A stretch of DNA of 34,003 nucleotides from an uncultured Bacilli bacterium (GCA_947586825.1 CANPXU010000012.1:1-34003), one strand, 5' to 3'. Counted from the stretch's first letter, positions 18,009 to 21,806 are shown. The notes: generated by a model not told the origin, from the sequence alone. Numbers and translations: made by a program.

Positions 18009-18037
18009 TTTAAATGTTTTTAAGAAAAAGATATAAT
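18009..18037 (+). promoter_or_regulatory. Lipoprotein gene promoter with predicted start on the ATG
   Basis: TTTAAA (18009-18014), 17-base spacer, perfect TATAAT (18032-18037). The canonical start point (seven bases past the hexamer) is 18044, the A of the lipoprotein ATG. Confidence 0.55.
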
Positions 18038-18043
18038 AATAGT

Positions 18044-18724
18044 ATGAAAAAAATAGTTATTATAATAATGATCCTTTTACTTGCGGGATGTTCTAATGAA
18101 AAAGCTGAATTAAATGAAAACAAAAATACTAGTGATGTACCAATAAAAGAGAACACTTCTTTACCTAGCAACACTTATGAAGACAATAATCCGGTTAAAG
18201 TAAGTATCTATATTGATAATGAACAAGGCAGCCTTTTAAAAGTAGTAGATAAGTATCAAACAACATGGGAAAAGAAAAAAGATATTGTTGTTTTAGCTAC
18301 TCTTCCCACAGATATTGATAATCCTGAGTATGGTTATATGCCTGATATATGGCCTTTGTATGATAAATATGATATATCTTATAAAATAGGTTGGAATGTT
18401 TCTTTTAAGTTAAAAAATGGCGAAGAAATAAATTCAACTTTACTAAAACCTAGTGATGCTGAAAGTTATTATGACTATCTAGAAATATATCTTTATGATG
18501 ATGTTAACGTTCCTGCAGGACAATGGCATTCCCATCTTTTAGATGATGAAGTTAATGAAAAGACGATAATGGATGCTATTAAGTTAACCGCGGGTGAAAA
18601 ATATGAAGAAATAGATGGCCCAATAAGTGTAATGGTATTTTCTTATGACGATAATGAAGATTTTGATGAAAATGGCAATTATCGTGGTAAAAGTTTGTAT
18701 AAAGTAGAAATTTATAATAACTAA
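18044..18724 (+). CDS. Lipoprotein of unknown function
   Basis: 226 residues from ATG 18044 (MKKIVIIIMILLLAGCS). The lipobox LAGC puts the lipidated Cys at residue 16. A Ser/Thr/Asn-rich linker runs to about residue 45. The remaining domain is acidic and aromatic with no motif I recognise; VPAGQWHSHLLDDEV and a beta-rich end are its main marks. An upstream in-frame ATG (18014) would spoil the signal peptide. No Shine-Dalgarno sequence is visible, and the promoter predicts a leaderless mRNA. It may serve the repeat protein encoded next, since tapA-like partners sit beside SipW systems, but that is inference. Confidence 0.7.
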   Translation: MKKIVIIIMILLLAGCSNEKAELNENKNTSDVPIKENTSLPSNTYEDNNPVKVSIYIDNEQGSLLKVVDKYQTTWEKKKDIVVLATLPTDIDNPEYGYMPDIWPLYDKYDISYKIGWNVSFKLKNGEEINSTLLKPSDAESYYDYLEIYLYDDVNVPAGQWHSHLLDDEVNEKTIMDAIKLTAGEKYEEIDGPISVMVFSYDDNEDFDENGNYRGKSLYKVEIYNN

Positions 18725-18728
18725 ATTA

Positions 18729-18757
18729 TTGTTATAAGTTTTTTGTTATGCTATAAT
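18729..18757 (+). promoter_or_regulatory. Promoter of the repeat protein-SipW operon
   Basis: TTGTTA (18729-18734), 17-base spacer, extended -10 TGcTATAAT (hexamer 18752-18757). Confidence 0.75.
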
Positions 18758-18782
18758 CTTAATATAATGAGGAGAGTGTAAA

Positions 18783-20858
18783 TTGAGTGATTTAGAAAAA
18801 GAAAAAGCTATAATTAGTGAATCTCCTGATTTTGAGACACAAAGAGAAATATTAAACGAAGAAAAGATTAATCAAAAAAAGTTGAGAAAATTCTATACGC
18901 ATATAGGATGTGTGTTTTTTTTGACATTCATGATTATCATAATTGCTTATTTAACTATTGATATTTATAAAGAATATAATTTTTTTAGTAATGATGTTTG
19001 CTTAAATGTTAATATAAATGAAGAAGGAGTAGACTTTAAAGCTATAAATGTGGCTGATAAAGGGGACTGTGCTCCTGAATATAATATTGATTACTTTAAT
19101 AATAGAAAAGCTACTTTTAACATTGATTTATTTGGTAACCAAAGCAGGATTTACAATGCAAGAAACCAAAAAGATAATAATGGTTATTGTTTATTAAATT
19201 GTGATTCTAATAACGATAACTGGCCTGATTATAATATTGACTTAAATGGTGATGGAATCGCGGATATAAATATAATTCATGACTACAATAATAGTAATGT
19301 TTGTGATTTAAATTGTGATTTAAATAATGATACTATTCCTGATACCAACATAGATACAGATGGCGATGGAATTGCTGATGTTAATATTACTGATGAATAT
19401 GACAGTTCTAAACCTTTGTATAATGTAGACTATAAAGGAAATAGAAGAGCTGAATTTAATGTAAGAAATGAAGATGGTTCGATATCCAATCCTGTGACAA
19501 AGGTTACGCCAGGAGCAGAGTGCACTGAAAATTGTGATCTTGATGGTGATGGATGGCCTGATTACAATATTAAATTACCAGAAACAGGTACTACTCTAAA
19601 TGAACTTGTTACAACAGGTTCAAAATCAGTTGATTATGATAGAGCAAAAACTGTTGATTGGAAATGTTTTATTTCAGGAACATTACCTAGCTGTGATACA
19701 AATAATGTAGCTCCAAATAATGGTTATATTAATATTGATGTTGATGGTGATGGAACCCCAGATGTTAATGTATCTTATGATGGAGGAACCACTGTTAGTA
19801 ATGGCTTAAATACTCCTGGAAATTATAATGGTCAAGATATAACTTTAAATGAAGATTTTAATGATGATGGTTTCCCTGATTTCAATATTGATTTAAATGG
19901 AGATGGTATTCCAGATTTAAATATTACAGCTGCAGGAAGTCATCAATGCACTAAAAACTGCGATACTAATTATGATGGTAAAGCTGATTATCTAATAGAT
20001 TATGATGGCAGTGGCAACAATAGTATTAGCATGACAAATGAAAATCTTGATGTTGATTTTGATAGTAAATGTGATTTGAACTGCGATACTAATTATGATT
20101 TATATCCGGATTTAAATATTGATACTGATGGTGATGGAGCTCCAGATTTAAATATTGATATTGATAATGATGGAATTCCTGATATCAATATTGATACTGA
20201 TAATGATCATAAGGCAGATAGTAATATGTCTGCAAGACTTGATGGCAATTGTAATTTCAATTGTACAGATAGACCTGAAACGATAGTTGATTACTCTGAT
20301 AGTTGTACTACTAATTGTGATACAAATAAAGATGGATGGCCTGATACTAATGTTGATTTAGATTATGATGGCGTATGTGATATCAATTGCGATACTGGTC
20401 AAACAAATATTGATAAAAATAATGACTATTTTGTTGATGATGGAGATAAAGCTAAAGATATAACATTTGATAAAGGCAAAAATGATATATTCTTTATATT
20501 AAATCCTATTGATATAAAAGGTATAGATATCGAACCAGGATGGCAAGATACATATGTTTTAGAGGTTTATAATAATGCTTCCTATGCTGCAGGCTATAAA
20601 ATAGAGTGGTCTGACATTGTTAATGAGCTTACTGAGGAAAATAATTTGCACTATAGTATTGTTAAAAATGGTAAGTCTTATTTAAATGATCTAAGAACAC
20701 CTTATAGGAATGTAGCTATAAGTGATGAAATAATACTAAGACCAAAAGCCAAAGTTAGATATGTTCTAAATATGAGCTTTGTTGAAACTGGTGAAAATCA
20801 AAATGTTGATAGTGGCAAGACCTTTAAAGGAAAATTAATAGTAACACTAAATAAATAA
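18783..20858 (+). CDS. Surface protein with Asp/Asn/Cys repeats and TasA-like C-terminal domain
   Basis: 691 residues, TTG start with AGGAGAG 6 bases upstream. Residues 1-40 are charged and cytosolic-looking. Residues 41-62 are one membrane helix (FFLTFMIIIIAYLTI), either an anchor or an unusually long signal segment. Residues about 125-560 are repeats of two interleaved kinds: NCDxNxDxxPD units and DxDGDGIPDxNI units, resembling the calcium-binding loops of thrombospondin type-3 and dockerin-like proteins. The last 115 residues (from about 575) form a beta-rich domain (IDIEPGWQDTYVLEVYNNAS) like TasA/camelysin. Since sipW follows, I infer a secreted, calcium-stabilised fibre or matrix component. 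There are at least 15 Cys, mostly in NC pairs. No sortase motif is seen. Confidence 0.75.
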   Translation: MSDLEKEKAIISESPDFETQREILNEEKINQKKLRKFYTHIGCVFFLTFMIIIIAYLTIDIYKEYNFFSNDVCLNVNINEEGVDFKAINVADKGDCAPEYNIDYFNNRKATFNIDLFGNQSRIYNARNQKDNNGYCLLNCDSNNDNWPDYNIDLNGDGIADINIIHDYNNSNVCDLNCDLNNDTIPDTNIDTDGDGIADVNITDEYDSSKPLYNVDYKGNRRAEFNVRNEDGSISNPVTKVTPGAECTENCDLDGDGWPDYNIKLPETGTTLNELVTTGSKSVDYDRAKTVDWKCFISGTLPSCDTNNVAPNNGYINIDVDGDGTPDVNVSYDGGTTVSNGLNTPGNYNGQDITLNEDFNDDGFPDFNIDLNGDGIPDLNITAAGSHQCTKNCDTNYDGKADYLIDYDGSGNNSISMTNENLDVDFDSKCDLNCDTNYDLYPDLNIDTDGDGAPDLNIDIDNDGIPDINIDTDNDHKADSNMSARLDGNCNFNCTDRPETIVDYSDSCTTNCDTNKDGWPDTNVDLDYDGVCDINCDTGQTNIDKNNDYFVDDGDKAKDITFDKGKNDIFFILNPIDIKGIDIEPGWQDTYVLEVYNNASYAAGYKIEWSDIVNELTEENNLHYSIVKNGKSYLNDLRTPYRNVAISDEIILRPKAKVRYVLNMSFVETGENQNVDSGKTFKGKLIVTLNK
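19198..20447 (+). repeat. Degenerate NCD / DGDGxPD repeats inside the surface protein gene
   Basis: The units are in-frame and imperfect, of roughly 12-30 codons. Typical units are NCDTNYDGKAD, NCDLNNDTIPD and NCDTNKDGWPD alternating with DTDGDGAPD, DLNGDGIAD and DIDNDGIPD. The DNA echoes the protein period with recurrent GATGGTGATGGA-like words. Confidence 0.85.
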
Positions 20859-20878
20859 TACGGAAGGAATAAAAAGGG

Positions 20879-21559
20879 ATGAAGAAAAAATATAGTAAAA
20901 ATTATATTTTTAAATATCTATCCACGATATGCTCGTGGACCCTTTTTATTTATTTGCTTTTAATTGCGGGCTTCTTGTTCTTTTATTTTATAAATATTAA
21001 GATTATAAACAAAGATAAAGTTAGTCAACCTATTTCAATATATACCATTGTAAGTGGTTCAATGATTCCTACGATAGATGTATATGATGTAGTAATTAAT
21101 GTAAAAATTGATTCTCCTAAAGATATAAAAGAGGGGGATATAATTACCTTTATTTCTCAAAGTGCAATATCAGAAAATCTAACAGTTACTCACCGGGTTA
21201 AAGATATTCAAGTAGTTAATGGTGAATACCAATTCACTACTAAAGGAGATAATAATATTATTCAAGATTCTGCTCCTGCAACATTTGATAAAATAATTGG
21301 TAAAGCAGTACTTAGAATTCCCCAATTAGGAAGAGTTCAAACTTTTGTAGCAAGCAAGTTTGGCTGGATAGTAATAGTTATTCTTCCAGCTCTTTATATA
21401 ATACTTAAAGATATTATTAAACTAGTAAGAATAAGTAAATTACAAAAAACATCTAACGAAGAAAAAGCAAATGCTATAAAAAATGGCAAAAAAGATTATG
21501 ATGAAGATGACAATGATGATATAATAGACGATGATGAAAGGAAAGATGACGATGACTGA
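20879..21559 (+). CDS. sipW: Signal peptidase I, SipW/ER type
   Basis: 226 residues: an N-terminal helix (about 18-40), the catalytic domain, and a second helix (about 163-183) with a cytosolic tail. Catalytic signs are VSGSMIPT (S61), VTHRV (H105) and TKGDNN (D124). Having His where ordinary bacterial type I peptidases have Lys marks the SipW/archaeal/ER class, which in Bacillus processes TasA and TapA. It is placed 20 bases after the repeat protein gene, which is therefore its likely substrate. The tail is strongly acidic (about residues 208-226, mostly Asp), longer than I would expect. GGAAGGA precedes the ATG. Confidence 0.9.
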   Translation: MKKKYSKNYIFKYLSTICSWTLFIYLLLIAGFLFFYFINIKIINKDKVSQPISIYTIVSGSMIPTIDVYDVVINVKIDSPKDIKEGDIITFISQSAISENLTVTHRVKDIQVVNGEYQFTTKGDNNIIQDSAPATFDKIIGKAVLRIPQLGRVQTFVASKFGWIVIVILPALYIILKDIIKLVRISKLQKTSNEEKANAIKNGKKDYDEDDNDDIIDDDERKDDDD

Positions 21560-21806
21560 GGGAGATTTAATAATATTAGATAATAATGAAAGATATTCAT
21601 TATTAAAAAAGATATCTTTAAATGAAGATACCTATTTTATGGCTGCATTTGTAAAAGATGATGATTTAGTAGATAAATCCAGAATAGTATATTTTAGAGT
21701 TGAAGAAGGCGACGATGAACAATTTGTTGATTTAGTAACAAGCGAAAAGATTATTACTGAACTTACTAACAAATTAGCAGAAGACGTAAAAAAAGGTGCT
21801 AACTAA
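21552..21806 (+). CDS. DUF1292-like small acidic protein
   Basis: 84 residues. Start chosen at ATG 21552 (MTEGDLIILDNNERY) because AAGGA is about 9 bases away; upstream in-frame ATGs at 21531, 21534 and 21546 lie closer to or before the site. It resembles YrzB/DUF1292 proteins: an opening 'GD.i.l.D', a beta strand of aromatic residues (TYFMAAFV), then an acidic helix. The role of the family is unknown. It overlaps sipW by 8 bases, so it is translationally coupled, but DUF1292 genes elsewhere accompany other housekeeping genes, so a role in the SipW system is not assured. Confidence 0.65.
   Translation: MTEGDLIILDNNERYSLLKKISLNEDTYFMAAFVKDDDLVDKSRIVYFRVEEGDDEQFVDLVTSEKIITELTNKLAEDVKKGAN

Follow-up and report, generated by a model that had tools for sequence, protein, structure and literature searches.

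The window, a stretch of 34,003 nucleotides from an uncultured Bacilli bacterium (GCA_947586825.1 CANPXU010000012.1:1-34003), encodes a protein of 691 amino acids which may be a membrane-anchored stalk that tethers or starts fibres of small SipW-cleaved subunits, a reading to which we give about an even chance. As far as can be judged from the sequence, anchoring or starting such fibres is a likelier role for the protein than building them, since the core that it shares with its relatives, often encoded directly upstream of sipW, consists of a cytoplasmic tail, a membrane helix, a spacer and a camelysin-like domain.

The gene for this protein is one of four genes arranged head to tail on the plus strand. 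A lipoprotein gene (18014..18724, with a probable start at 18044 and the lipobox LLLAGC), which is a conserved neighbour in the genus, is followed by the gene for the 691-residue protein (18783..20858), a gene for a SipW-type signal peptidase of the archaeal/ER type (20879..21559) and one for a small DUF1292-like protein (21552..21806). This is the gene set that had been described in the initial annotation. The gap between the 691-residue protein and sipW comprises 20 bases. The open reading frame of the small protein was listed from 21531; its start is probably at 21552, where the Met is invariant. Upstream of the gene for the large protein, a promoter-like site TTGTTA-17-TATAAT with a TG preceding the -10 element is located at 18729..18757 on the plus strand. 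Sites of this kind abound in this A+T-rich DNA and are no commoner than in shuffles, but the site, already annotated as a promoter, is conserved in most of nine aligned genomes. The ribosome binding site AGGAG (18770..18774) precedes an unusual TTG start, which is retained in eight of the nine genomes. The locus was found in nine genomes of the genus, and all of them share the order of lipoprotein, 691-residue protein, SipW-type peptidase and DUF1292-like protein, except that one lacks the small gene. On the upstream side, the order ftsE-ftsX-M23-lipoprotein-repeat protein-sipW is fixed within the genus wherever the sequence is sufficient, with an additional gene inserted in one genome. A search for a plasmid or phage origin gave no match.

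The small protein of the window scores 14.5 bits with DUF1292 (PF06949), below the gathering cut-off of 24. While the match is weak for this protein alone, seven of its eight orthologues match DUF1292 at E<=1 (best 1.1e-6), which bears out the name given to it. For the lipoprotein, a role as a TapA-like helper had been suggested. No family match was obtained for it, its profile shows no similarity to the camelysin-like domain (hhalign 0.4%, serving as the negative control for the domain profile), and its signal is of the lipobox kind and not of the SipW type, which argues against this role.

The peptidase was matched by TIGR02228 (sigpep_I_arch) with 93.4 bits, above the curated cut-off of 51.85, and by the Bacillus SipW equivalog NF046067 with 74.7 bits, below its cut-off of 190. 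By the latter test it is SipW-like and not an orthologue of the Bacillus enzyme. The catalytic Ser61 (21059-21061, plus strand) and His105 (21191-21193, plus strand), the latter in place of Lys, are invariant in nine orthologues, in agreement with the Ser-His type annotated before. One other Ser-His peptidase is encoded in the genome of the window, a protein of 167 amino acids (G000:C6:47.3 kb; L034:9305-9808) with Tad-pilus-like neighbours, namely a CpaF-like ATPase, a MinD/TadZ-like and a TadE-like protein. The single ordinary signal peptidase of this genome adjoins a ribosomal protein gene. Long charged C-terminal extensions, giving totals of 360-477 amino acids, are present in the SipW proteins of relatives at L095:1945-4000, L098:7300-8388 and L029:4015-5310.

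Elsewhere in the genome of the window, small proteins which begin with SipW-like signals are encoded, at least nine in number and organized in clusters of one to three (G000:C5:15.6-18.2 kb, L074; G000:C8:21.3-23.7 kb, L075; G000:C5:57.7 kb, L076; G000:C17:19.7-21.2 kb, L078). These proteins mostly end in a conserved Cys and are candidate fibre subunits. A profile of nine of them matches the small SipW substrates of relatives with 99.4%, the signal part included; the profile match to the anchored C-terminal domain of the 691-residue protein is weak (60%). On this comparison, the small proteins appear to be the likelier substrates of SipW.

At its N-terminus, the 691-residue protein contains the cytoplasmic juxtamembrane motif DFETQREILNEE (residues 16-27, 18828..18863, plus strand), with the consensus D-[FYL]-x-x-Q-x-x-x-[LIE], followed by the membrane helix that had been annotated, a single one at about residues 35-64 (18885..18974, plus strand). 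The core common to the relatives is composed of a cytoplasmic D-[FYL]-x-x-Q-Y-x-x-L, a Glu-rich stretch, basic residues, one helix and the C-terminal camelysin-like domain. The spacer between helix and domain varies: it is a 12-residue array in most proteins, a cadherin-like domain in G019 (L029), and a short linker, nearly nothing, in G057 and G056 (L089, L095). Whatever the kind of spacer, the D-[FYL]-x-x-Q motif always precedes the helix. Repeat proteins with about 100 cytoplasmic residues ahead of the helix are encoded at L081:375-1694, L094:4804-6105, L116:1771-3036 and L097:4588-5928; three of these four adjoin two shared genes (for proteins of about 360 and 500 amino acids) and not sipW.

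These features bear on the view of the initial annotation that the repeat protein is itself a substrate of SipW, which would be cut after the helix, released, and would form or decorate a fibre. The adjacency of its gene to sipW speaks for this view, as do the sequences GASFSYY, GATFSYE and GATYSYI, which follow the helix in several genera and are similar to sites at which small substrates would be cut by SipW, for example, GATFAYF. However, the SipW-signal model TIGR04088 matched neither the protein of the window nor any large repeat protein tested. At the corresponding site after the helix, the species of the window contains IAYLT, and Leu, Val or Phe occupies the position of the expected small residue in five of the nine genus members. 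The cytoplasmic tail is also conserved between genera, and in G020 and G064 the helix terminates in LIS-C or ITG-C, lipobox-like ends which fit an anchor. Altogether, the substrate reading is rather unlikely, and the proposal of a fibre-making SipW substrate found no support for the 691-residue protein, whose conserved tail and helix look anchor-like. Since TIGR04088 is unmatched and IAYLT places a large residue where cleavage would need a small one, we favour, with moderate confidence, the view that in this genus the protein is an anchor which would not be cut by SipW.

The Asp/Asn/Cys array of the extracellular part comprises residues 73-536 (18999..20390, plus strand) and contains sixteen recognisable copies of a 12-residue unit, D-x-[ND]-x-D-G-x-[PAC]-D-x-N-[IVC]. 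In 500 shuffles of the same residues, the mean number of units was 2.9 and the maximum 8. Head-to-tail neighbours at a distance of exactly 12 residues were observed eight times, compared with 0.03 expected from the shuffles. The repeats noticed in the initial annotation are thus real, but they do not alternate between two types: the NCDxNxD units described there are the same unit as DxDxDG, because Cys can replace positions 8 and 12. In many units, Cys is present in place of P/A at position 8 and of I/V at position 12, resulting in a Cx3C pair, and each of the nine orthologues contains eight such pairs. A tandem D-x-[DN]-x-D-G-x-x-D spacing with paired cysteines is also known from calcium loops such as those of thrombospondin type 3. 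The array of the window differs from these by its strict period of 12 residues, in which positions 8 and 12 can be Cys. Judging from how the acidic residues are spaced, the repeats probably bind calcium. No TSP3, dockerin or EF-hand match in Pfam was obtained for the protein of the window or for five relatives with longer arrays, FG-GAP appearing in one relative only at E=0.12. A search of PDB sequences with the 691-residue protein and with the longest array of a relative gave no match. Matches of relatives to MSCRAMM proteins (ClfA, Sdr) were rejected as reflecting Asp/Ser-repeat composition, far under the cut-offs. A variant array, TKNCHEDPKNPDVC, precedes a camelysin-like domain at L083:7110-7694 (G100:C13) and ends at the contig edge.

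For the cysteines, formation of disulfides is the natural reading. Eight of nine orthologues have an even number of extracellular Cys residues (20 or 18), all nine share 18 invariant Cys, and the pair C295/C304 is lost jointly in two genomes, a pattern which disulfides would produce. The same three observations stand against the alternative that the cysteines bind metal or act as redox thiols, with the array serving to store or sense metal. Metal-bound or free thiols were considered because no member of the VKOR or DsbA families was found in the genome, which is 82% complete, although the search controls matched. We regard this alternative as improbable; the explanation of the protein as an anchor is compatible with either state of the cysteines.

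The C-terminal domain, predicted to be beta-rich, covers residues 562-691 (20466..20855, plus strand). It gave no match in Pfam or NCBIfam, and the camelysin family PF12389 was not matched at E<=10. By comparison of profiles, it matches 13 small SipW substrates of relatives with 99.7% over 117 columns (hhalign). Seven of these 13 substrates match PF12389, and a protein of G058:C9 is matched both by PF12389, above the cut-off, and by the domain profile. The domain is classified as camelysin-like by this two-step argument via the small substrates of relatives. The TasA/camelysin-like domain of the initial annotation was therefore real in its kinship to camelysin, which is seen through the profiles of relatives and not as a direct family match.

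Structure prediction contributed little to this assignment. The AlphaFold model of the whole protein was unusable (pLDDT 34), and that of the domain alone was of low confidence (pLDDT 61, pTM 0.58); the models are weak because only three sequences were used in the alignment. With the low-confidence domain model, Foldseek gave no match at E<=0.001, VIA-align gave a best Z of 6.3 to unrelated sandwiches, and TasA was absent among the matches listed. The CanA cannula proteins and the Bacillus F-BclA tip were rejected as fold relatives, with Z about 5 being too low. A profile of 31 domains retrieved no TasA chain from the PDB sequences. With the profile of the small substrates, TasA appeared in the PDB only at E=0.1, and CopC (E=0.003) was judged an unlikely lead. 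A protein of 407 amino acids (L099:2343-3566; G000:C7:8.8-10.1 kb) has an N-terminal camelysin-like domain and an unrelated C-terminal domain; similar layouts are present at L087, L092, L098 and L124.

For the genome searches, a profile built from the C-terminal domain (A4) was used. Of 117 genomes belonging to the same family, 39 contain the domain, with up to 15 copies; among 296 genomes drawn from the whole class, the matches were confined to this family. A SipW-like gene is present in all 39 domain-bearing genomes, 35 of them having a strong one, and in 82 of the 117 genomes overall. The probability of this co-occurrence by chance is 2e-8 for any SipW-like gene and 7e-12 for the strong set (hypergeometric), values which ignore shared descent. 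The initial annotation had made its proposal depend on homologues of the repeat protein lying beside sipW in relatives, and this adjacency recurs: in ten genera, including that of the window, the gene of the domain protein immediately precedes sipW and has the same orientation. It lies within the small cluster of sipW in G020, G094 and G106, and away from sipW in G043, G060, G064, G068 and G100. Small canonical SipW substrates often share the cluster with the domain protein and sipW. In L117, L120 and L121 (G068, G111, G125), sipW is located near pheS-pheT though the domain protein is not adjacent, and some of these loci resemble the window further in that a gene for a dicarboxylate symporter or rubrerythrin is close to sipW. 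The location of sipW seems to be older than its present partner gene.

The gene neighbourhoods also bear on the possibility that the repeat protein is a surface adhesin or wall spacer which binds calcium or metal, has nothing to do with fibres and shares an operon with sipW by history. The repeats account for most of the extracellular part, the repeat protein is encoded far from sipW in several genera, and within the genus of the window its gene stands beside ftsE-ftsX and an M23 hydrolase. However, ftsEX is a neighbour in this genus alone, and in other genera the repeat gene retains sipW and not ftsEX, so that of the genus neighbourhood only the pairing with sipW persists. For this reason the FtsEX-M23 neighbourhood was ruled out as a component of the system. 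Further, the camelysin-like domain is conserved in all proteins, whereas the repeats are dispensable. An adhesin or spacer of this kind is considered improbable.

In B. subtilis, tapA precedes sipW and tasA (PMC10151520). The Ig fold of TapA is complete; the protein colocalises with the membrane and can take up only the first place in a filament, where it supplies TasA with a strand, and its conservation is lacking even inside Bacillus (PMC10151520). The gene of the repeat protein occupies the position of tapA, immediately before sipW and in the same orientation; the two loci are alike in having a gene for a membrane-associated protein, in B. subtilis the Ig-like accessory protein TapA (PMC10151520), directly 5' of a dedicated SipW, and the genome of the window, too, contains small substrates of the camelysin type. 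In contrast to TapA, which has a SipW-cleaved signal and is devoid of a repeat stalk, the protein of the window has a cytoplasmic tail, a helix, the 12-residue array and the C-terminal camelysin-like domain, and its operon lacks tasA in this genus. The matches of the window in Pfam and NCBIfam included no TapA family. Identity with TapA or TasA is not proven for the 691-residue protein, the family tests which define these proteins having given a positive result only in part.

In B. cereus, the sipW-tasA-capP(BC1280)-calY locus likewise combines SipW and camelysins with an accessory protein (PMC13082335). CapP (BC1280) has an accessory role related to that of TapA, is retained on the wall by its repeats and steers polymerisation (PMC13082335). 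It differs from the protein of the window by a DUF4047 domain followed by wall-retaining QKKV/AEE repeats, and neither DxDxDG repeats nor a C-terminal camelysin-like domain have been described for it (PMC13082335). The sipW-bsaA operon of C. perfringens is similar in that a secreted product of a SipW operon forms filaments; BsaA, however, is a small secreted subunit, and no anchored repeat protein was described there (PMC7395162). A small substrate of G019 matches the BsaA model TIGR04090 with 1.7e-7, below its cut-off. In the open-licence literature searched, the architecture reported here was not described, and nothing was found which links SipW with TSP3-like repeats or with RF39.

In the proposed mechanism, the 691-residue protein would be a type II membrane protein with its N-terminus inside. 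Its 12-residue Asp/Asn loops would form a stalk, which calcium probably stiffens and which would hold the camelysin-like domain off the membrane, and the paired cysteines would lock part of the stalk units. Encoded in the tapA position, the protein would most likely act as TapA does in B. subtilis: its camelysin-type domain would be offered as the first unit, and a fibre of small SipW-cleaved subunits would be started and tethered to the cell. The SipW of the same operon would cleave these subunits, for which the scattered small proteins with SipW-like signals are the candidates.

More broadly, and more tentatively, one family of uncultured gut Bacilli may possess a dedicated anchor for SipW-dependent fibres, with a conserved tail, an exchangeable stalk and a camelysin-like tip, the stalk in the present case being a calcium-stiffened and cysteine-locked new 12-residue repeat. 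If this is true, the distance between the membrane and the start of a fibre would be set by the stalk, while the tail could recruit machinery inside the cell or report on it. How fibres of the TasA type are retained on cells is not settled, and the protein would be a concrete and widely kept candidate for an anchor. Because the stalk varies while tail, helix and tip are constant, the anchor idea can be tested in a cultured relative by swaps or removal of parts. In addition, SipW-linked surface proteins would be added for a large group of small-genome gut bacteria, whose surfaces are absent from the literature searched.
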